A stretch of DNA of 64,000 nt from NCBI RefSeq assembly GCF_027579695.1, contig NC_083570.1, positions 4,929,001-4,993,000 of the forward strand, in the 5' to 3' direction. Both the position numbers and the translations under genes were made by a program. Shown here piece after piece: positions 24,440-48,345 of this stretch. Within the stretch, counting starts at the first letter, position 1; each line of letters opens with the position of its first letter. A model generated the notes under the pieces. It saw only the letters and a list, made by a program, of their open reading frames with translations. It did not search any database and was not told the origin of the DNA. The DNA is from Neoarius graeffei. Its lineage: Eukaryota; Chordata; Actinopteri; Siluriformes; Ariidae.

Positions 24440-26545
24440 AGTCTTTCTCACCCCCAGTCTGTCTGTCTCTCTCACCCCCTCTGTCTGTCTCTCTCACCCC
24501 CCGTCTGTCTCTCTCACCCCCCTCTGACTGTCTCACCCACCCTCTGACTGTCTCTCTCACCCCCTCTGTCTATCTCCCTCACCCCCATATGTCTGTCTCT
24601 CTCGCCCCCCTCTATATGTAGCTGTAACGTAACATCTGATGCACAGAAATCAGCAATCAAGATCTAAGAGAGCTAAGAGAGCACTAAGAGCACTTGCTTT
24701 GTACATAAGCAGTACATTTAATTAACTGTTTTATTGCCTAATATCACAAGGCATTATGGTATATAAGTCCAGCATAAGCTCTTCAGCCTCAAGTGAATTA
24801 TATTTTACAGGGAGTTCTACATCTATAGCTATATATAGCTACCAAGTCTCTCTCACCCCCTGTCTGTCTCTCACCCCCCTCTGTCTGTCTCTCACCCACC
24901 CTCTGTCTGTCTCTCTCACCCCGTCTGTCTCTCTCACCCCCCTGTCTGTCTCTCTCACCCCCTCTGTCTGTCTCTCTCACCCCCTTCTGTCTGCCTCACC
25001 CCCGTCTGTCTCTCTCACCCACCGTCTGTCTGTATCTCTCACCCCGTCTGTCTCTCACCCCGTCTGTCTGTCTCTCTCACCCACCCTCTGTCTGTCTCTC
25101 TCACCCACCCTCTGTCTGTCTCTCTCACCCACCCTCTGTCTGTCTCTCTCACCCACCCCCTGTCTGTCCCTCTCACCCCCGTCTGTCTGCCTCACCTCCG
25201 TCTGTCTGCCTCACCCCCGTCTGTCTGTCTCTTTCACCCCTCCTCTGTCTGTCTCTCTCACCCCCCTCTGTCTGTCTGTCTCTCTCACCCCCCTCTGTCT
25301 GTCTGTCTCTCTCACCCCCCTCTGTCTGTCTGTCTCTCTCACCCCCCTCTGTCTGTCTGTCTCTCTCACCCCCCTCTGTCTGTCTGTCTCTCTCACCCCC
25401 CTCTGTCTGTCTGTCTCTCTCACCCCCCTCTGTCTGTCTGTCTCTCTCACCCCCCTCTGTCTGTCTGTCTCTCTCACCCCCCTCTGTCTGTCTGTCTCTC
25501 TCACCCCCCTCTGTCTGTCTGTCTCTCTCACCCCCCTCTGTCTGTCTGTCTCTCTCACCCCCCTGTGTCTGTCTGTCTCTCTCACCCCCCTGTGTCTGTC
25601 TGTCTCTCTCACCCCCCTGTGTCTGTCTCTCTCACCCCCGTGTCTGTCTCTCTCACCCCCCTGTGTCTGTCTCTCTCTCTCACCCCCCTGTGTCTGTCTC
25701 TCTCTCTCACCCCCCTGTGTCTGTCTCTCTCTCTCACCCCCCTGTGTCTGTCTCTCTCTCTCACCCCCCTGTGTCTGTCTCTCTCTCTCACCCCCCTGTG
25801 TCTGTCTCTCTCTCTCACCCCCCTGTGTCTGTCTCTCTCTCTCACCCCCCTGTGTCTGTCTCTCTCTCTCACCCCCCTGTGTCTGTCTCTCTCTCTCACC
25901 CCCCTGTGTCTGTCTCTCTCTCTCACCCCCCTGTGTCTGTCTCTCTCTCTCACCCCCCTCTGTCTGTCTGTCTCTCTCACCCCCCTCTGTCTGTCTGTCT
26001 CTCTCACCCCCTCTGTCTGTCTGTCTCTCTCACCCCCCTGTGTCTGTCTCTCTCTCTCACCCCCCTGTGTCTGTCTCTCTCTCTCACCCCCCTGTGTCTG
26101 TCTGTCTCTCTCACCCCCCTGTGTCTGTCTGTCTCTCTCACCCCCCTGTGTCTGTCTGTCTCTCTCACCCCCCTCTGTCTGTCTGTCTCTCTCACCCCCC
26201 TCTGTCTGTCTGTCTCTCTCACCCCCCTCTGTCTGTCTGTCTCTCTCACCCCCCTCTGTCTGTCTGTCTCTCTCACCCCCCTCTGTCTGTCTGTCTCTCT
26301 CACCCCCCTCTGTCTGTCTGTCTCTCTCACCCCCCTCTGTCTGTCTGTCTCTCTCACCCCCCTCTGTCTGTCTGTCTCTCTCACCCCCCTCTGTCTGTCT
26401 CTCTCACCCCCCTCTGTCTGTCTCTCTCACCCCCCTCTGTCTGTCTCTCTCACCCCCCTGTCTGTCTCTCTCACCCCCGCTTCCTCTGCCTGTCTCTCTC
26501 ACCCCCCTCTGTCTGTCTCTCTCACCCCCGCTTCCTCTGCCTACT
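24440..26545. repeat. 27-bp minisatellite, interrupted by copy 2 of the duplicated block
   Basis: The unit is CACCCCCCTCTGTCTGTCTG followed by TCTCTCT (27 bp); a common variant has TGTGTCTGTCTCTCTCTCT in the second part. Early units (24440-25250) are irregular, later ones (25250-26450) very regular and grouped by variant. The block at 24611-24823 interrupts the array. Long open frames on both strands (up to 598 codons) arise because 27 is a multiple of 3. Confidence 0.95.
24611..24823. repeat. 213-bp duplicated block, copy 2
   Basis: Second copy of 23337-23547, without the transposon insertion, and followed directly by TATAGCTATATATAGCTACC, which in the first locus lies after the transposon at 24419. 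The whole unit (block plus start of the minisatellite) was therefore duplicated. Confidence 0.9.
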
Positions 26546-27186: not shown

Positions 27187-28363
27187 TGTAGTCCACTTCT
27201 CACAATTACCGCAGAAAGGGGCCCTGGGTTCGTAAAGCAGCTATTTTAACTTAAAATAAACCCCCTTGTAATCATAGTTTTACAACAACTAGCCTAAATG
27301 ATGGGCAGCTACATTACTCACCTTTACCCTTAGGGTGTCTAAGAAATATAAAAACTTTAAGGAAATAACCAGTCAATTATTTATTTAGCTTTTAATATGA
27401 TTTCACAACATAACAACCCTATCTAACAAAAAAATAAATAAATAAAATTAAATAACTTTTGTCTTTCTTCGTCTGTGTCACACACAGCCAGCAGAAAGCA
27501 AAAAAAAAAAAAACCCTTTTGCAGGCCTCATATTGTGTTGCTTGTGTGCGATGAAATCCACAACTTTAATCCAAAAACAGTGAAAATACAAGTGTTACCT
27601 CCAGTGCAGCTCAACTGCAAAGAGCAGCAGTTTACCCGGTCCCGGTCTCCGAAGACAGGCGATGATACAGCACAGGCACCCAAAATGGAGGTAACCAGGT
27701 GAGAAGGCGGTGGAGTCTCTTACAGGCAGCCCATGAACACGTCCGGACGAGAGGAGTCACACACAGATCAGCAGCGGTCAGGATGAATCCCCGTGTCCCG
27801 CGTTGAGACCACGAGGCAGTCGATAGTAGCTGGGTTAGCTGCCCTCAGCTAAGTGTATTCACTGTGCTAGCGAATGCTAATAACATACTCTGGATTAGCT
27901 TAGCGGCTATGCTAAACTAGAACTGCAGCTACAAACAGAAACCTCTGAGCAGAAAGTCTCTGGCTGCACACCAAACAAGCGTAGCTCCGATATCCAAGTC
28001 AAGAATGCCGAGCAGACAGTCTCTTAGATACAAAACTACATACTTTGTCTCTGAAACAAAAGTTCACACTCGCCATCATGCATCTCCGTCCACTCTCTCT
28101 CACTGCTCGTGGTGCTTCTCTCAAGCTCCCTCCCACAAAAATTTACCCAGGAGATTCTTCAAAATAAAAGGAAATACTTAAAATTTGCACATTTGTGTCT
28201 TTTTAAATCTTTTTAGCATATTTATTACACTATTATTTTATCAGCTATTTTAACCTTTATGAAATATCTTTTCCACACTTTTAATCACATTTTTAACCAA
28301 CCAATGAACATATTAAACTATTTATTATTTCATTATGGATAGTGATTTTTTAACAGGGTTACA
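27187..28363 (-). repeat. 3' LTR of the Gypsy retrotransposon
   Basis: Bounded by TGTAG...TTACA on the plus strand (TGTAA...CTACA on the coding strand). The left flank ends CACT (27183-27186), repeated after the other LTR at 47202-47205, so the element made a 4-bp target duplication. The partner LTR (36920-47201) differs at many positions and by a 0.3-kb block, so this insertion is not recent. Position 27627-27634 (GCAGTTTA, single copy) is the empty version of the site where the giant element sits in the partner LTR. Confidence 0.92.
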
Positions 28364-28376
28364 CCCTCCCCCCTTT
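28364..28376 (-). promoter_or_regulatory. Polypurine tract of the Gypsy element
   Basis: On the coding (minus) strand AAAGGGGGGAGGG ends exactly at the LTR. It is the plus-strand primer site for reverse transcription. Confidence 0.85.
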
Positions 28377-36919: not shown

Positions 36920-37517
36920 TGTAGCCCACTTCTCACAATTACCGCAGAAAGGGGCCCTGGTTTCGTAAAGCAGCTATTTTAACTTAAAATAAAGCCCCTT
37001 GTAATCATAGTTTTACAACAACTAGCCTAAATGATGGGCAGCTACATTACTCACCTTTACCCTTAGGGTGTCTAAGAAATATACAAACTTTAAGGAAATA
37101 ACCAGTCAGTTATTTATTTAGCTTTTAATATGATTTCACAACATAAAAACCCTATCTAACAAAAATAAATAAATAAAATTAAATAAAAACTTTTGTCTTT
37201 CTTCGTCTATTTAAATCACAAATCAAATCACAAAGATCTCCTTTCCTTTACACAAATTCGCCAAATTATTACTTCCCATGACAGCAAACCATTACCCCTT
37301 CTATTCAAACAAAACCCCTCAGTCAACAAAACCACACTCCAAGTTTCAATGAAAATGATCAAATACCCTTCAAGTTGGACAATACCTTTAAGTACCACGA
37401 ATACTCTTAAATTAGTGAAATATGTTTAACTTATCACTAGTGCCTTTAAAAGTTAGAAAATACCCTTTTAAGTATAACAAATAACTCAAACACTCAGTGG
37501 GCCCACACTCACTCACT

Positions 37518-37600
<83 letters not shown>

Positions 37601-37740
37601 CCGGCAGAAAGCAAAAAAAAAATGTTGCAGGCCTGATATTGTGTTGCTTGAGTGCGATGAAATCCACAACTTTAATCCAAAAACAGTGAAAATACAAGTG
37701 TTACCTCCAGTGCAGCTCAACTGCAAAGAGCAGCAGTTTA
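36920..37740 (-). repeat. 5' LTR of the Gypsy element, part proximal to gag
   Basis: Matches 27187-27634 of the partner LTR except for an extra block (about 37207-37590) that ends in a long (AC)n microsatellite (37518-37600). It is interrupted after GCAGTTTA (37733-37740) by the giant inverted-array element and continues at 46472. Confidence 0.92.
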
Positions 37741-37859
37741 GGGACTCCCTAAAGTGAATGACGCATGAAATGGAATGACGAATGACAGCTAGTGATTTGA
37801 ACAATAAATGGTCCCTTGCCATTCAGATTCTTATAAATGGAATAACGATTGAAATGTAG

Positions 37860-39660
37860 GTGGAATGACATGCTTTCAGCTCATGAAATGGAATGACATT
37901 GTTTCTAAGTGGAATGACATACTTTGAGGCAATGTTATCAGTGATATCACCTATAACAAATGGAATGACAGTGTTTTTAGGTGGAATGACACACTTTGAG
38001 CATATGTTATCAGGGATATCTCCATTTACAAATGGAATGACAGGGAATTTAGGTGGAATGACATACTTTTAGGTTATCAGTGATATCACCTTTTACAAAT
38101 GGAATGACAGTGTTCCTATGTCTATGTTTCAAGGATATCTAGTTGGGCCAAGAGGTGGACGGTTTCATTCAATCCAAATAAAGCTAAATCCATACAGTTT
38201 AGTAGGAAAATAAATAAATGTAAATAATCACAAGCAAGGTTATGTTATCAGTGATATCACCTTATACAAATGGAATGATGGTGAATTTAGGTGGAATGAC
38301 ATACTTTTAGGTTATGTTATCAGCGATATCACCTTTAACAATGGAATGACAGTGTTTCTAAGTGGAATGACATACCTTTAGGCAATGTTATCAGTGATAA
38401 CACCTTTAACAAATAGAATGACAGTGTTTCTAGGTGGAATGACATACCTTTACCTTATATTATCAGTGATATCGCCTTTTACAAATGGAATGGCAGTGAA
38501 TTTGGGTGGAATGACTAGCTAAAAGTATGTCATTCCACCCAAATTCACTGCCATTCCATTTGTAAAAGGTCATATCACTGATAACATTAGCTAAAAGTAT
38601 ATGTTATCAGTGATATGACCTTTAACAAATGGAATGACAATGTTTTTAGGTGGAATGACAAACCTTTAGGTTATCTTATCAGTGATATCACCTTTTACAA
38701 AAGGAATGACAGTGTTTTCAGGTAGAATGACATACTTTTAGGCAATGTTATCAGTGATATCACCTTTTACAAATGGAATGACAGTGTTTTCAGGTGGAAT
38801 AACATACTTTGAGGCAACGTTAGTGATATCACCTTAAACAAATGGAATAAGAGTTTTTCTAGGTGGAATGACATACTTTGAGGCAATGTTATCAGTGACA
38901 TCTCCTATTACAAATGGAATGACAATGTTTTTAGGTGGAATGACAAACCTTTAGGTTATGTTATCAGTGATATCACCTTTTACAAAAGAAATGACAGTGT
39001 TTTCAGGTAGAATGACATACTTTTAGGCAATGTTATCAGTGATATCACCTTTTACAAATTGAATGACTGTTTTTAGGTGGAATAACATACTTTAAACTAA
39101 TGTTATCAGTGATATCACCTTTTACAAATGGAATGATAGTGAATTTAGGTGGAATGGCATACTTTGAGCTAATGTTGTCAGTGATATCGCCTTCAACAAA
39201 TGGAATGACAGTGTTTTTAGGTGGAATGACATACTTCAAGCTGATGTTATCAGTGATATCACCTTTAACAAGTGGAATGGCACTGTTTCTAGGTGGAATA
39301 ACACCTTTAGGTTATGTTATCAGTGATATCACCTTCAACAAATGGAATGACACTGTTTCTAGGTGGAATAACACCTTCAGGTTATGTTATCAGTGATATC
39401 ACCTTTTACAAATGGAATGACAGTGTTATTAGGTTGAATGACATACTTTTAGCTAATGTTATCAGTGATATCACCTTTTACAAATGGAAATACAGTGTTT
39501 TTAGGTGGAATAACATACTTTGAGGCAATGTTATCAGTGACATCACCTCTAAAAAATCGAATAACAGTGTTTTTAGTTTTAGGTTGAATGACATACTTTT
39601 AGGTTATGTTATCAGTGATATCACCTTTTACAAATGGAATGACAGTGTTCCTATGTCTAT
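37860..39660. repeat. Left 72-bp repeat array of the giant element
   Basis: Each unit contains GGAATGACAGTGTTTTTAGG, then TGGAATGACATACTTTTAGG, then ATGTTATCAGTGATATCACC and TTTTACAAAT. Units are diverged by point changes and deletions. A block of about 90 bp (ATATCTAGTTGGGCCAAGAG...) at 38133-38222 recurs at about 39668-39757. A short inverted piece at about 38515-38590 forms a local hairpin. The 24-codon period makes spurious open frames. Confidence 0.92.
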
Positions 39661-40689
39661 CTTTCAAGGATATCTAGTTGGGCCAAGAGGTGGACGGTTT
39701 CATTCAATCCAAATAAAGCTAAATCCATACAGTTTAGTAGGAAAATAAATAAAAGTAAATAATCACAAACACCCTGGCTTAAATTTACATAGTAACTGTT
39801 ATTGGGACACTCACATAAACTCGATCATTATGAAGGTATGTCTGTTAATTAACTGTTTGAGAAGCCTCAAATATCGTTTATCGTTTACAATTCCTAAAAA
39901 TATACAATTCCTAAATTCTTTCCCAGTTGAAAGAAGACGCTTTCCTGAAGTGTGTAGATTTTTCTAGAATTTTTAGAAGCTGTTTAATGTGGGAAATCTG
40001 TTGATAAGCAACCTCACCCCTGCCCATTTTAATGGAAAAACAAGCTTCAAACTGATATATAATTGTGAAAACTTACTAAAACAATTTTAAACTCTTTTTA
40101 TGATTGTATTATATTAGGACCAAAAACAGAAAAAAATTAATTTAAGGCCAAAGCCTTTTTCTCAAATTGATGCTGTTAGGCCCCCAAAAACGCCTTTCCA
40201 GTCCACAAAAGAATGTGAAAAAAATCAGTGGTGCTATGAAAAAAATTATGCCATTATAATTAACACCAAATGTGGAAATAAAACATTTTGGTCGTTCAAC
40301 TCTGATTATGCAACTTTAAGTGCATTAAGGCTTGTTAAACTCAGAAAAATTCTTCAAATATGTTATAGCACTGAAGGTGTGCTGGAACATTTAACTGGTG
40401 AAAACAATATATAATGGAAACACTTTTTCAAGCTTCCTATCCATTCATGGATGATCTAGATGTATTTAGTGAGTCCTATGTTGAAAAGAAATTAAGATAA
40501 GTCACCAATGCCTTCTGGATAATTTGTCTTAGTTCTTTTGTTGTTTTTGTCAAAAAAGTTAAACCTGATTCATGCACTTGTTTTCTGACTGAGCAAATGA
40601 TTTATAACCCACCTATTTAAGTTAAGAAAAACCTGTCTTCATTTAACAGTTGTACAGCTGTCTTACAACTCATACTTATGTAAGCTAGA

Positions 40690-41045
40690 ATATATAGATA
40701 ATGGAAACTTTACATTTTGTCAAAATGATAGTGAAACAATTGCTCATTTGTTGTGAGAATGTAATTTTACCCAGTTTTTTAGGAAAAGTTTTTCTTCATG
40801 GATAAAGAATTGTTCCCACTTATGTAATGTGATTCTTGGTTTACAGTTTATCTTATTTGGACAGGTCTGTTACAGACAAGATTTTTACTTCATTTAATTG
40901 TTTGCCAAGTTTTTCTATTTACAAATGTAAGTATCAGAATTGTCAAGATCACTTTGGAAGTTTATTAAAAGAAATGTCTGTTAGTTATGAAATAGAAAAA
41001 GACAATTTATTTATCAATTGCTCCTCTAATAAGTTATTCGAATTC
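40690..41045 (+). pseudogene. Decayed LINE ORF2 C-terminal remnant, plus strand
   Basis: Read with stops ignored, the segment gives a zinc-knuckle-like FCQNDSETIAHLL, a Cys, a WIKNC segment and an ILFG segment, the order seen at the C-terminus of L1-type reverse transcriptases. At least one stop falls inside. The similarity is weak and judged by eye. Confidence 0.35.
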
Positions 41046-42289
41046 TAGTGGTTATATCAAAATTTATTTACGAACAGCCCTAGAAACACATATTTAATTT
41101 AGATAACCAATGCTTGCTTGAACCATCTGGAATGAATGTGTGAGCGGTTAACCGTTTAATAACATAAAAAAACCTGAATCACATTATCTACACATTCAAC
41201 ATCTTATGTCAAGAGGTCAGGAATTCGTCATTAGTAATAGGATTCAGTGATGAAATGTTGAAAAAAAAGGATTATCTAATTCTAATTATTTAATTAAGAA
41301 ATACTTTCATAACATTTCATGAAAATGATAGATTTTTAAAAATTTATTTTGCTGTTTGAGTTCAAATGTTTTTTAGTTGTTTTTTTGGCATTTATTCATT
41401 TTTGTCAAGTTTATGTGCATTTTTTTTTTTATATCATACATTCTAAAGTACCAAAATGATAAATATGAGCCCAATTGGCAAAAATGGTATGATTTAAAAA
41501 AAACTGGTTAGCAATTATGACAGATGCACATATAAAAATTGATAAAATAACTATTTTGCTCAGATATGTGCAAAGAAGAAAAAGAGGCATAAATACAATT
41601 TTAACTTAGCCAAACAAAATATTTTCAAATGTAAAAGCATAGGTGTAAAACTTTGTTTAGATTGTTCAAGACTTCAAAAACACTTACAACATCGATAAAT
41701 ATAATGCATTTTCAGCCTGCAACTACTCCAAAATTATGAAATATTGGTCAACCTGACATTTACTTTGCTAAAATCATTATACTTCGAATTCACAAAATTA
41801 AAGCCAGAATCCCAGATTTTAATTGACACTTATCCTTTTCAAAACATTACAAAAAACACCCTAGTGAACAAGTTTTGTATTAGAACAGTGTAGTTTTCAA
41901 GATATTGGCGAAAAAACTAAGATCGACTTGAACATTGGAGATGTAAACAACAGTGGCGGACAGAAAACACAATGAGAGAAATTATGTATTTTCGTGGCTC
42001 CCTAGGCTTGAATCTTAGTTTTCTTCCTTTCTGAGTCATTTTAGTCACAATCGACCTAACATCACATGTCCTGATATAAATTAAGCCCACTGGTACCAAA
42101 TTGACGGGAAATAATCCCCGAATGTAACTATGCCTGTTTCGAAGGTCATATTATGTTATACGAGAAGGATCTGGGATTCTGTCTTTAAGAAATGAAATCA
42201 CCTATTGTTCTTTTTTTAGACACTACCTGTTATCGCTACATTACACCAAATTTGTAAACCTTTATATATGCGTATATATTTAAATATCA

Positions 42290-43150
42290 AGAAAGCTCAT
42301 ATTTTGAAACATGCTGGCATTCGTAAAAAAGATAACTTATAGTTTCTTCTTCCTGTTTACAGAAGTCACACATTTTGGAATCTTTAAGTTTCATTTTATG
42401 CAATAGGCTATTTGTAGGTATAATTTTATGTAAAATAGTCTTGAAACTATTACCATTTTCAATTTTAGATTGCTCGCTTCTTCACTTGTTTGTCAATCAT
42501 ATTATTTGTGGTTTTTTTCATATATGCTTTAATTGAATGAAGTATACTCATATAATAAGACAAGTTTATCATATGACATGATGCTTCCATCTTATTGACA
42601 ATATCAATCATGTAGACGAAACCTGATATGAACATATTCTTATCATCTAAAGTCCTATTGTGAATCACTATGTTAACATTATTCCATCGACAGTCTCACA
42701 TTGCGTTTTAAAAAGTTTCTCTTTTATCTTACTATATTGTGCCCATCATTTTAAGACATCTGACCAGAATTCATTTGTTTTTGATGCAGATGAATTGTTG
42801 CTAATCGATGCCTTATTATACAGATAAAAATCTGCATGTTTTGGTGATGTATTCATCATAAATAGATTTTCAAAGTTTGATTTATCATGGGAGTGGAAAA
42901 CTCATCCAACACTAATTCCATCCTCAGGGTAATTTCTGGTGATTAATTTTCTTTTCATTATGTCTGGTTTTCCATTCCAAATTGAACGTAATCAAAGTTT
43001 TTCGATTTCTTTAGTTGCAGCATAAGTAGGAAGTGGTAGTACAATAGAAATAAGATTGAGCTTTGGTACAAGACGTTTTCATGACATTTGCCATGCCTAT
43101 TGAGGTAATTTCTCTTGCAAGCAACTGATTCATGTTCATTTTAATTTAAG
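42290..43150 (-). pseudogene. Decayed L1-type LINE ORF2 C-terminal remnant, minus strand
   Basis: On the minus strand, LPLPTYAATKEIEKL and IWNGKPDIMKRKLITR (about 42930-43070) match the region after the RT domain in L1-clade elements (KLQK-FIWNGKK-R). Further on, HKMKLKDSKMCDFCKQEEET and ISYLFYEC (about 42320-42400) form the C-terminal CCHC-type motif. Several stops and frame changes separate the pieces. It points to an old LINE captured in the loop of the giant element. Confidence 0.6.
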
Positions 43151-44239
43151 TTTATCCTTACAGTTTCTCTCAACCATTTCTGCCAAATTATTGGTAAATG
43201 TTATGTCAAGGATGGTAAAATCTTTTGATGACCAATCTAAGTTATAGTTTTTACATACAAGGGTGATGTCTAGAAAACAAGCACATAATAGGATTTGAAC
43301 ATATGAATGGTCAAAATTAGTCCTGCTCCATTACTGTATATCATATTTAACAGCCTTTTAGTTAGGGAACAAATTTCACAGACTATTTTTTAGTCTAGGA
43401 ACAAATGTTTTGTTATCTCATTAATTGCCGTGTAAAAATAAGATTAATTTTTTCTATTTTCCACTTTGTTTAAAAAGCATGCATAACAAATATATGTCAT
43501 GCGAGCTCTGCCACTCAATCGTAATGCCACTTTTATCAGTTAACACTGGTAAAACCAAATATATAATGAAAGATCAGATGTGTTTGTTGTCTTTGAATGA
43601 AAAGTGTTGTAATCCTGTTTTAATTCATACATTTTGTTGACAAATGCATTTTCAGTAGTGACAATTGATGTCTGTGTTTGAATGATAGTTTATTGAAATA
43701 ACCAAAACCTGTGCACCAACTACTACTTGAAATAAGCAGACAACAGAAAAGAAATTATTGTGGCAAAGGAACAGTGAGAAATTAACTACAATTTGAATCA
43801 TAATTAAATTTGTCAAATTTTAGTTTTATCTCTCTGGGTTCCTAACATGCCTAATCCCATAAGAAAATGATTTATCACTATGGCAAGTTTTGGTAGAGGT
43901 AGTCCTTTAAGTTTTTAAGATCTGCTCTGAAACTGAAATTCTTTGAAAAAGAACTGCCATTCAGACTGGTTTCTATGCAAGAAAATGGAAAACCTTGCAG
44001 GAAATGATTGATTATGGTAACAAGTTTGGTTGACCTTGACTTTACAGTGTTCAAGATATACTCTGAAAATGAAATTCTAGGAAATTATGTAAGACTGCAA
44101 TAAAGAAAATCAATGAATTACCAGCTAGTGCATGCTTTTAGAAGATTATAATTTGAAACAGTTTATAGACAGACTGACGTCAAACAACTGGCCACATCAA
44201 AGGGCCTATACCTTTAACTGAATTCTAAAACCTGTAACT

Positions 44240-46300
44240 TTAAATCAATACCACCTAGAAACCCTGTCATTCCATTTGTAAAAGGTGATGTCACTGATAA
44301 CATAACCTCAAAGTCAGTCATTTCTACTAAAAACACTGTCATTCAAATTTGTAAAAGGTGATATCACATAACATTAGCTCAAAGTATGTCATTCCACCTC
44401 GAAACAGTCATTCAATTTGTAAAAGGTGATATCACTGATAACATTGCCTCAAAGTATGTCATTCCACCTAGAAACACTGTTATTAGATTTGTAAAAGGTG
44501 ATACTGTTAATTTAACCTCAAAGTCTGTAATTCCACCTAAAAACACTGTCATTCCATTTGTAAAAGGTGATATCACTGATAACATTTCCTCAAAGTATGC
44601 CATTACACCTAGAAACACTGTCATTCCATTTGTTAAAGGTGATACCACTGATAACTTAACCTAAAAGTATGTCATTCCACTTAGAAACCATGTCATTCCA
44701 TTTCTTAAAGGTGATATCACTGATAACATTAGCTAAAAGTATGTCATTCAACCTAAAAACACTGTCATTCCATTTGTAAAAGGTTATATCACTGATAATA
44801 TAACCTAAAAGTATGCCATTCCACCTAGAAACACTGTCATTCCATTTGTAAAAGGTGATATCACTGATAGCATTGCCAAAGTAAGTCATTCCATCTAGAA
44901 ACGCTGTCATTCCATTTGTAAAAGGTTATATCACTGATAATATAACCTAAAAGTATGCCATTCCACCTAGAAACACTGTCATTCCATTTGTAAAAGGTGA
45001 TATCACTGATAGCATTGCCAAAGTAAGTCATTCCATCTAGAAACGCTGTCATTCCATTTGTTAAAGGTGATATCACTGATAACATTAGCTTAAAGTTTGT
45101 CATTCCACCTAAACACACTGTCATTCCATTTGTAAAAGGTGATATCACTGATAACATAACCTAAAGGTGTTATTCCACCTAGAAACTGTCATTCCATTTG
45201 TGGAAGGCGATATCACTGATAACATTAGCTCAAAGTATGTCATTCCACCTAAAAAGCAATGTCATTCCATTTCTAAAAGTGATGTCACCGATAACATAAC
45301 CTAAAGGTGTTATTCCACCTAGAAACTGTCATTCCATTTGTGGAAGGCGAGATCACTGATAACATTGCCTCAAAGTATGTCATTCAACCTACAAACACTG
45401 TCATTCCATTTGTTAAAGGTGGTATCACTGATAACATTAGCTCAAAGTATGTCATTCTGACTCAAAACCCTGTCATTCCATTTGTTAAATGTGATATCAC
45501 TGATAACATCAGCTTAAAGTATGTCATTCCACCTAGAAACACTGTCATTCCATTTGTAAAAGGTGATATCACTGATAACCTAAAAGTATGTCATTCCACC
45601 TAAATTCATTGTCATTCCATTTTTAAATGGAGATATCCCTGATAACATATGCTCAAAGTGTGTCATTCCACCTAAAAACACTATCATTCAATTTCAGTAA
45701 AATCACTGATAACATTAACTCAAAGTATATCATTCCGACTCGAAACACTGTCATTCCATTTGTTAAATGTGATATTAACATCAGCTCAAAGTATGCCATT
45801 CCACCTAGAAACACTGTCATGCCTCAAAGTATGTTATTCCACCTATAAATACTGTCATTCCATTTGTAAAAGGTGATATCACTGATAACATAATCTAAAA
45901 GTATGTCATTCCACCTAAATTCCCTGTCATTCCATTTGTAAATGGAAATATCCCTGATAACATATGCTCAAAGTGTGTCATTTCACCTAGAAACCCTGTC
46001 ATTCCATTTGTAAAAGGTGATATCACTGATCATATAACCTAAAAGTATGTCATTCCACCCAAATTCACTGCCATTCCATTTGTAAAAGGTGATATCACTG
46101 ATAATATAAGGTAAAGGTATGTCATTCCACCTAGCAACATTGTCAATCCATTTGTTAATTTGATATCACTGATAACATTGCCTCAAAGTATGTCATTCCA
46201 CCTAGAAACCTTATCATTCCATTTGTAAAAGGTGATATCACTGACATTAGCTCAAAGTAAGTCAATACATATAGAAACCCTGTCATTCCATTTGTAAAAG
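44240..46300. repeat. Right 72-bp repeat array of the giant element (inverted)
   Basis: The same unit as the left array in opposite orientation: CTGTCATTCCATTTGTAAAA, GGTGATATCACTGATAACAT, then AAAGTATGTCATTCCACCTA. Two neighbouring stretches (about 44770-44900 and 44915-45040) are almost identical, suggesting recent expansion. Open frames here (up to 98 codons) have a 24-residue period and are not genes. Confidence 0.92.
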
Positions 46301-46471
46301 CTGATATCCCACCAAGCACCCACTTATCTTATCCTAGGGGGGTCTAAAACTAAAGATTTCAATCGTTATTCCATTTGTAAGAATCTGAATGACAAGCGAC
46401 CATTTATTGTTCAAATTTACTACCTGTCATTCGTCATTCCATTTCATGCGTCATTCACTTTAGGGAGTCCC

Positions 46472-47201
46472 GCAGTTTACCCGGTCCCGAGGACAGGCGA
46501 TGATGCAGCACAGGCAGCCAGAATGGAGGGGAGCAGGTGAGAAGGCGGTGGAGTCTCTTCCAGGCAGCCCGCGAACACGTCCGGGCGAGAGGAGTCCCAC
46601 GCAGATCAGCAGCGGTCAGGATGGATCCCCGGGTCCCGCGCTGAGACCGCGAGGCAGTCCATAGGAGCCGGTTAGCTGCTCTCGGCTAAGTGTATTCACT
46701 GTGCTAGCGGATGCTAATAACCCGCTCTGGATTAGCTTAGCGGCTATGCTAAACTAGAACTGCAGCTCCAAACAGAAAGCTCCGAGCAGAAAGTCTCTGG
46801 CTGCACCCAGCAGGCGCAGCTCCGATATCCAGGTCAAGAATGGCGAGCAGACAGACAGTCTCTGAGAACCGAAACTACACACTCTGCCTCTGAAACAAAA
46901 AGCTCGCACTCGCCATCATGCTTCTCCGCCCCCCCTCTCTCACTCCTCGGTGCTTCTCTCAAGCTCCCTCCCACAAAACTTTACCCAGGAGATTCTTCAA
47001 AATAAAAGGAAATACTTAAAATTTGCACATTTGTGTCTTTTTAAATCTTTTTAACGTATTTATTACACTATTATTTTATCAGCTATTTTAACCTTTATGA
47101 AATATCCTTTCCACACTTTTAATCACATTTTTAACCAACCAATGAACATATTAAACTATTTATTATTTCATTATGGATAGTGATTTTTTAACAGGGTTAC
47201 A
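46472..47201 (-). repeat. 5' LTR of the Gypsy element, distal part
   Basis: Begins with the second GCAGTTTA and matches 27627-28363, ending GGGTTACA at 47201. The next four bases CACT (47202-47205) repeat 27183-27186, closing the Gypsy insertion. Confidence 0.93.
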
Positions 47202-48345
47202 CACTGTAAAACATTTAAAAGGACATGGAATGATTATTTGCTGCCTTCCAAATGCATCCATCTCTGACACCAAAGACAGCATTTTGAAACTCATGTCCAA
47301 GCATAAAACTATCAAACGTATTGTTATGCATGTGGGAGCAAATTATGTTTTCAGAGAACAGCTGTTTGTCCAAGATGATTTCAGAAAAAAATTTTCTGAC
47401 CTCTATAAGACTAGAATACAATCTATTATCAGTGGCCCACTCCCTGCAAGGGGAAGTTTTGCATTTACTAGACTCTTCAGTCTTAACACCTGGCTTGGAA
47501 AAACTTGTTTTTCATTTGGTATGAACTTTATAGACAATTTTAACCTTTTCTGGAATCGCAGAGAATTCTTCAGGCCAAATAGCACTGAACTCAGCTGGAT
47601 TGGGACCAAAGTTTTGGCTGATCACTACAGCCTCTCTCTCCAGCATGCATTCTTTTCTCAGCCAACATTGGGCAGAACTGATGATAAATGCTCACAGACT
47701 GACCCAGTTACAGATATCAACAAAACCTCTGCAAAGCCAAAACAACTACCCATGCAAGCACAGCAGAGATGCTTCAACAAGGACACACAGCCATCTGGGG
47801 CAGACTGCCAAGGACCATCTGGGGCAGACTGCCAAGGACATCAGCAATCACATGGAGAATGTGAGCATGTTGTTAACAATGGGCAGCCACAGATATCTGC
47901 ATCACCCATCCAAATTGAGGACCTGACCAAAGACAATCATGCCAAGGCTGAATCATCCACATCTCGACCCCATGCAAGTATCACAGAGACTGTCACGGAG
48001 ACAGTCACCACGGAGACAGTCATGGAGACACTCACAAAGACCTCACCAAAGTCCCAATCTCAGTCTCGCTCTTCTAACTTCATTGTACCATCCCCGTCTC
48101 CCCCCTGCATGGATTTCCCTAAAAGTATGCAGAGATTGCTGCCAATGGCTGCACTCTCTTTTTCCAGCCCAAATCATTCGCGACAAGCAGTGTACGCAGT
48201 TCATCGAAAATCAACCAACAGACTGAACTGTGTTTGCCCAGGACTTTCAGCTGCCTACCAATCTTTTTCACCATCTAAAAAATACATTACATCTCCACTC
48301 TTTCCCCCTCCCAACCTCATGGAATATACAAAGAGTCTTGTATGA
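47202..48345 (+). pseudogene. L2/CR1-type LINE ORF1, C-terminal part with SGNH esterase domain
   Basis: Continues the ORF1 broken at 27186. The esterase fold shows CCLPNASISDTKDSI and the VGAN motif in MHVGANYVFRE (block III, normally GxND), then WIGTK and LADHYSLSLQ, where the catalytic Asp-x-x-His would be. A low-complexity tail follows with a duplicated PSGADCQG motif and a run of TETVTETVTT. The open frame extends upstream into the LTR (from 47173), but those first ten codons are LTR sequence. It ends with a stop at 48345. Confidence 0.78.

Follow-up and report, generated by a model that had tools for sequence, protein, structure and literature searches.

The best-known foldback elements with tandem-repeat arms come from Drosophila, where FB/NOF carries long inverted arms of tandem units around a variable loop and FB duplicates 9 bp of its target; the MULE-NOF class (MULE, Mutator-like element) takes its name from this NOF-FB system. 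Here an element of the same plan is described from Neoarius graeffei (Siluriformes; Ariidae), in a stretch of 64,000 nucleotides (C2:4929001-4993000, hereafter the window) in which it occupies positions 37741-46471 (8,731 bp). The family to which it belongs duplicates 8-10 bp and no NOF-like gene was found linked to its tips, the likeness to FB/NOF being one of description only. In architecture its closest counterparts are Tetris, FB and Galileo of Drosophila.

Tetris/DAIBAM of Drosophila virilis is, like the window element, a non-autonomous foldback whose tips are common with a miniature inverted-repeat transposable element (MITE), whose tandem-repeat arms share a stretch with the tip and which holds no conserved open reading frame (ORF); its target-site duplications (TSDs) of 8-9 bp, or 9-10 bp in rearranged copies, are similar to those of the present family (PMC4079207). 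It differs in its host and in the length of the repeats (~220 bp vs 72 bp), the likeness being one of description only, and satellite arrays are reported for it whereas here unit matches were only counted (PMC4079207). In Galileo, a member of the P superfamily, the arms are long and internally repetitive and their repeats contain secondary transposase-binding sites but, unlike in the element described here, the flanking sequences are of 7 bp, and the terminal inverted repeats (TIRs) reach ~1.25 kb (PMC3573991). Muta1, a MULE of Aedes aegypti, resembles the window family in its TSDs of 8 or 9 bp and its subterminal tandem repeats in varying number; it has given rise to more than 300 non-autonomous derivatives, most of them with varied interiors, and has a known active autonomous copy, whereas none was found here (PMC5225508).

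An inserted element with inverted arms of tandem repeats

The window element is a real mobile element that was inserted by transposition. Its first 48 bases are the exact reverse complement of its last 48, and the likeness continues inward with small gaps. The word GCAGTTTA abuts the element on both sides as an exact 8-bp TSD and occurs only once at the corresponding place in a partner long terminal repeat (LTR), which provides an empty-site control. The partner LTR aligned with 36920-37208, 37592-37740 and 46472-47205 at 96%, 93% and 90%, respectively, and because these pieces align around the element it must have entered one LTR of a pre-existing pair. The matching ends, the flanking repeat and the single copy in the partner LTR had all been read from the letters in the initial annotation of this stretch, and each of these readings held.

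That annotation had also claimed arrays of 72-bp repeats leading in from both termini in opposite orientations, which is what was found, with 23 anchor matches to the unit in direct order on the left, interrupted by one break, and 26 in inverse order on the right. Similarly, the core GGAATGACA was counted 23 times forward and once in reverse in the left arm, and 34 times in reverse and never forward in the right arm, with no occurrence in the loop or in the remainder of the window. Units within the arrays are on average 75% (left) and 80% (right) alike. The arms are related to the termini, since AAATGGAATGAC is common to tip and unit (a score reached by 4 of 2,000 dinucleotide shuffles) and the subterminal stretch corresponds to a diverged unit, the first 146 bases scoring 46 against the unit, a value reached by none of 2,000 shuffles.

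The loop between the arrays, put at ~4.5 kb in the initial annotation and now delimited (Table 1), is AT-rich (30% GC over 39751-44230). A six-frame Pfam scan of 39751-44253 with E values up to 1 gave two zf-RVT pieces and no recognised transposase, and a one-frame scan of part of the loop gave nothing, in agreement with the earlier description of the element as non-autonomous. Tandem-repeat arms in inverse orientation around a loop are thus present in the window copy, the same plan recurs in a second long copy (L009, see below), and the element is confirmed as a foldback-type transposon, apparently non-autonomous. Near the partner LTR, at window 25062-26523, a 27-bp unit is repeated in tandem 55.5 times.

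Table 1. Coordinates of the foldback element and its surroundings in the window
Feature	Position	Strand	Basis or remark
Partner LTR of host retroelement, without foldback insertion	27187..28367	.	LTR alignment
Single GCAGTTTA in partner LTR, empty-site control	27627..27634	.	same place in matching LTR
Second LTR, split by element at 37741-46471	36920..47205	.	LTR alignment, three pieces
Left 8-bp TSD GCAGTTTA	37733..37740	.	exact word match
Left 48-bp perfect TIR; contains AAATGGAATGAC, also in 72-bp unit consensus	37741..37788	+	
Left subterminal stretch with diverged unit-like segment	37789..37885	+	shuffle test
Left 72-bp unit array, interrupted ~38119-38236 by loop-edge copy	37886..39649	+	
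168-bp duplication, copy 1, carries array/loop junction	38069..38236	+	4 mismatches of 168
Inverse unit within left array	38519..38595	-	first 52 bases = right-arm stretch (46039 onward)
168-bp duplication, copy 2, at real left loop edge	39604..39771	+	
Loop, without transposase domain	39650..44250	.	six-frame Pfam, E up to 1
Loop part without second genome match found	39884..42430	.	genome search, counts are lower bounds
zf-RVT-like piece, weak, possible LINE (long interspersed nuclear element) debris	40655..40777	+	E 0.086, below cut-off
zf-RVT piece, LINE-like debris, opposite orientation	42305..42436	-	E 1.3e-6, above cut-off
Right loop	42873..44230	.	98-99% matches at 5 or more further places, complete at three and partial at two
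Right 72-bp unit array, inverse orientation	44251..46308	-	
Right 48-bp perfect TIR	46424..46471	-	
Right 8-bp TSD GCAGTTTA	46472..46479	.	exact word match

A genome-wide family of long copies and MITEs

The search for other copies sharing the tip, proposed with the initial annotation, was run over the whole genome (2.34 Gb, 38 contigs) and revealed hundreds of matches. The 40-bp tip with at most one mismatch matched 327 times and the 20-bp tip with up to 3 mismatches 520 times, against 0 and 96 matches for the respective reversed controls, and a 35-base word of the unit matched 955 times against 0 in the control. The places of 100 of the 520 and 100 of the 327 matches were listed, and stretches were fetched at part of the 100 from the 20-bp search.

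The TSD count drew on 48 loci plus the window, 49 sources in all, which gave 42 two-ended rows, 40 of them with independent flanks; the second copy in L025 and that in L026 were left out because they share their flanks with the first copy in L025. In these two neighbouring stretches (G000:C2:73.84-73.86 Mb) one MITE insertion, flanks included, is present three times at a spacing of ~7.4 kb, evidencing a local tandem duplication. Eight of the 49 sources gave no tip pair in the TSD script. L002, L003 and L005 remained unpaired as short stretches of places contained in L011, L010 and L012, respectively, the right end of L012 has no recognisable tip, and the left tip of L037 carries an insertion that the pairing script does not allow; in L047 and L051 the partner was supplied by the 40-bp tip search, and L050 has no partner tip within 8.9 kb.

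A duplication was recognisable in 37 of the 40 independent insertions, being exact in 31 (8 bp in 17, 9 bp in 13 and 10 bp in one) and with one mismatch in 6, while flanks swapped between copies gave none in 1,716 combinations. The duplication of exactly 8 bp initially described is therefore correct for the window copy and for part of the family, which also makes duplications of 9 and 10 bp. At the left end the first base is G in all 42 rows; at the right end it is A in 36 (mostly AG), G in four, including the window copy, and C in two.

Copy lengths range from 206 to 8,731 bp (n=40), with 29 copies at 600-1,200 bp, which is MITE-like, and only four longer than 3 kb. The element had been called a giant, and it is unusually long indeed, although it does not stand isolated but is a relative of a MITE-like family. 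Fourteen MITEs of 695-720 bp share a mean pairwise identity of 99.0% (lowest 97.8%), which implies that the family moved not long ago.

Among the long copies, L009 (C9, 6,972 bp) has a loop of 1.36 kb that matches window 42873-44230 at 98.7% and is bordered by arms with 31 and 41 unit anchors, and at a locus near 51.58 Mb of C2 unit words in both orientations extend over 8 kb and 278 bp are shared at 97.5% with the left loop edge of the window copy. The right loop was found at no fewer than 6 places, comprising the window copy and others on C24, C17 and C9 as a whole and L024 and L022 in part. With regard to the remaining 3.1 kb of the loop, further matches to its first 81-112 bp were obtained at C2:51585770, at C9:92644252 and at C17:71662055, and to ~0.45 kb of its right end at C24, whereas the genome search, whose counts are lower bounds, gave none for the ~2.5 kb in between. 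Loops thus differ between long copies, and the simplest reading is that the window copy lies near the ancestral long form and that the others lost different inner parts.

Probable transposase source and candidate superfamilies

The available evidence is best accommodated by a non-autonomous foldback DNA transposon moved in trans by a DDE-type transposase, with a MULE of the FB/NOF kind as a somewhat likelier source than Merlin (probability about 0.6). The mixture of 8-10-bp duplications together with a GG tip favours MULE (FB/NOF) or Merlin over hAT, P and Zisupton, and the foldback habit and the single 10-bp case place MULE above Merlin with modest confidence. The TSDs of hAT, P and Zisupton are near-fixed at 8 bp. 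Those of MULEs span 8-11 bp in a 2019 survey (PMC6446971), a range that contains all the lengths found here. In the mechanism that can be hypothesized, the transposase supplied by the DDE-type element would bind the tip and many putative tip-like sites in the units, and the whole element would move by cut and paste with staggered target cuts of 8-10 bp. The unit copies may serve as extra transposase-binding sites, as proposed for Galileo and Tetris.

In favour of this interpretation, MULE-type domains are present in the genome, with 8 matches to PF10551 and 4 to PF20700 (Mutator; E 4.5e-5 to 7e-4), as are 50 matches to the Merlin domain (DDE_Tnp_IS1595), many in open frames. Several observations weigh against it. 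None of these matches lies within 200 kb, and no PF10551 or PF20700 match within 1.5 Mb, of the tips listed, there being no listed tip on the contigs that hold 10 of the 50 Merlin and 2 of the 4 PF20700 matches. At three of the 8 PF10551 places (L033-L035) and one of the 4 PF20700 places (L059) that were fetched there was no family tip or unit, apart from one tip-like word with 5 mismatches in L035 and one with 6 in L059, both taken as chance. The PF20700 match (L059:1450-3270, minus strand, C1) lies by a frame with what appears by eye to be a THAP-like N-terminus, so that this gene is perhaps a THAP transposon instead of a MULE. Three of the 40 insertions, moreover, have no recognisable duplication, and no Pfam domain with E up to 0.1 was detected in the interiors of the long copies L057 (C5) and L058 (C2:51.58 Mb). 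The longer copy with a transposase that the initial annotation had proposed to look for did not appear, the window copy being the longest of the 40.

A candidate autonomous copy, L056, which lies beside the array of L050, was rejected because no left tip is present within 8.9 kb. Overlapping frames of 158 and 151 amino acids at L056:3278-3944, which have no Pfam match, resemble a single protein split by a frameshift, its C-terminus rich in cysteine; they lie ~3 kb inward of an array that has a single tip, and L056 also contains Tc1-like pieces. At L033:3407-4672 (G000:C2:48103806-48105071, minus strand) an open frame of 422 amino acids encodes a MULE transposase domain (E 9e-8).

That a Merlin (IS1016-like) transposase moves the family is possible, though on balance unlikely. 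Merlin families start with GG and make TSDs of 8 or 9 bp; their TIRs measure 24-462 bp, and some families contain tandem repeats (PMC8101967). Of the 40 duplications here, 30 are exact at 8 or 9 bp, and all left ends begin with G. The exact 10-bp TSD (L011) and the right tip, which mostly begins with AG, fall outside that description, no linked Merlin gene was found, and four of the 50 Merlin places that were fetched (L029-L032) showed no tip at up to 6 mismatches within ~1.1-1.6 kb, the units not being sought there; this last result tells equally against the broader proposal of a DDE-type source that includes Merlin. Of the superfamilies with 8-bp duplications considered at the outset, Merlin fits mostly, and hAT, P and Zisupton are disfavoured by the longer duplications. 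A foldback of these latter three, for which the 17 exact 8-bp TSDs and the repetitive arms of Galileo could be invoked, is improbable: 14 of the 40 copies have exact duplications of 9 or 10 bp with fixed element boundaries, Galileo as described is flanked by 7 bp instead of 8-10 (PMC3573991), and none of their transposases was seen in the Pfam scans of the window loop, L057 and L058, the genome not having been searched for hAT, P or KDZ.

Long arrays are hard to assemble, and an artefact could have produced those of the window, but the same plan with different lengths at other loci and the fact that units are only 75% and 80% alike, which makes collapse or false expansion of an array unlikely, render this explanation very improbable. 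It is barely conceivable that a satellite array gained inverted ends by chance and is not mobile. The arms are indeed tandem repeats and foldback arms can seed satellites, as reported for Tetris (PMC4079207); against this stand the TSDs, the empty site, the tips at hundreds of places and the MITE copies.

Evolution of arms and MITEs and significance of the family

Two processes would make the arms of a foldback moved in trans by a DDE-type transposase longer or shorter, namely unequal exchange and, when the element is replicated or a gap is repaired, a switch of template from one mirror arm to the other or inside the same arm. Two features of the left array are relevant in this respect. A 168-bp piece that carries the array/loop junction recurs 1,535 bp away inside the array with 4 mismatches, and such copying of the loop edge suggests unequal exchange. 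In addition, one flipped unit shares 52 identical bases with the right arm, which points to an arm-to-arm template switch or to a local snap-back; it also pairs, with mismatches, with its own neighbour (38444-38515) over 72 bp, and could equally reflect the snap-back, a point against switching between arms.

When copies were compared at a threshold of 94% over 150 bp, long copies matched shorter ones over their outer 200-345 bp, and the loop with ~300 bp of adjoining array matched among the window copy, L024 and L022 and also among L009, L024 and L022. Mid-array matches were isolated, as that of 240 bp between the window copy and L022, and the window copy and L009 do not form a pair in this comparison despite the 98.7% match of their loops. 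Over their terminal 150 + 150 bp, the four copies longer than 3 kb are 93.9-98.7% alike. As mid-array matches are scarce while loops and ends remain alike, the arrays turn over faster than the loop and the tips. The arrays of L009 show a three-unit higher order, units three apart being more alike than neighbours in one arm (0.889 vs 0.839) and in the other (0.872 vs 0.836).

In the MITEs, internal deletions between the arms would have turned foldbacks into abundant short copies. A telomere-like stretch such as CCTAACCCTAACCCTAG, 1-3 repeats long, joins the arms in 25 of the 40 copies (for example L017:456-479), namely in 22 of 29 at 600-1,200 bp and 3 of 4 at 1,200-3,000 bp, and in none of the three shorter or the four longer copies. 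One founder for the hinge-bearing MITEs is likely, and it may be speculated that a broken element healed with telomeric sequence gave origin to the hinge. By eye, unrelated sequences interrupt the MITE at or beside the hinge in L047 (~397) and L051 (~283), as if nested insertions favoured this site. Taken as a whole, the more complete scenario of a recently active vertebrate FB/NOF-type MULE foldback lineage, with arms that evolve through template switches from arm to arm as well as through unequal exchange, and with MITEs descending from a founder whose arms were rejoined via a short telomere-like (CCCTAA) patch, is doubtful.

In the open-access literature searched, no paper joined foldback elements with teleosts and none joined MULE-NOF, foldback and transposase. 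A MULE-NOF class is nevertheless counted in a table of four teleost genomes, in which one entry, with 1,159 copies, fits zebrafish by its percentage (PMC4746887). A named match may therefore exist, and the initial statement that the element could not be matched to a named fish family is to be taken with this reservation. The 2019 MULE survey regards the nine Repbase reports of vertebrate MuDR as probably mis-identified (PMC6446971). With MULE-domain frames in the genome and a young family whose duplications resemble those of MULEs, MULE activity in a vertebrate becomes testable.

Altogether, this young foldback family of N. graeffei adds to a known but rarely described kind of transposon. It constitutes natural material for the study of how tandem arms grow and how MITEs originate from foldbacks, and it is suited to asking which advantage a transposase might draw from the presence of dozens of tip-like sites within an element.

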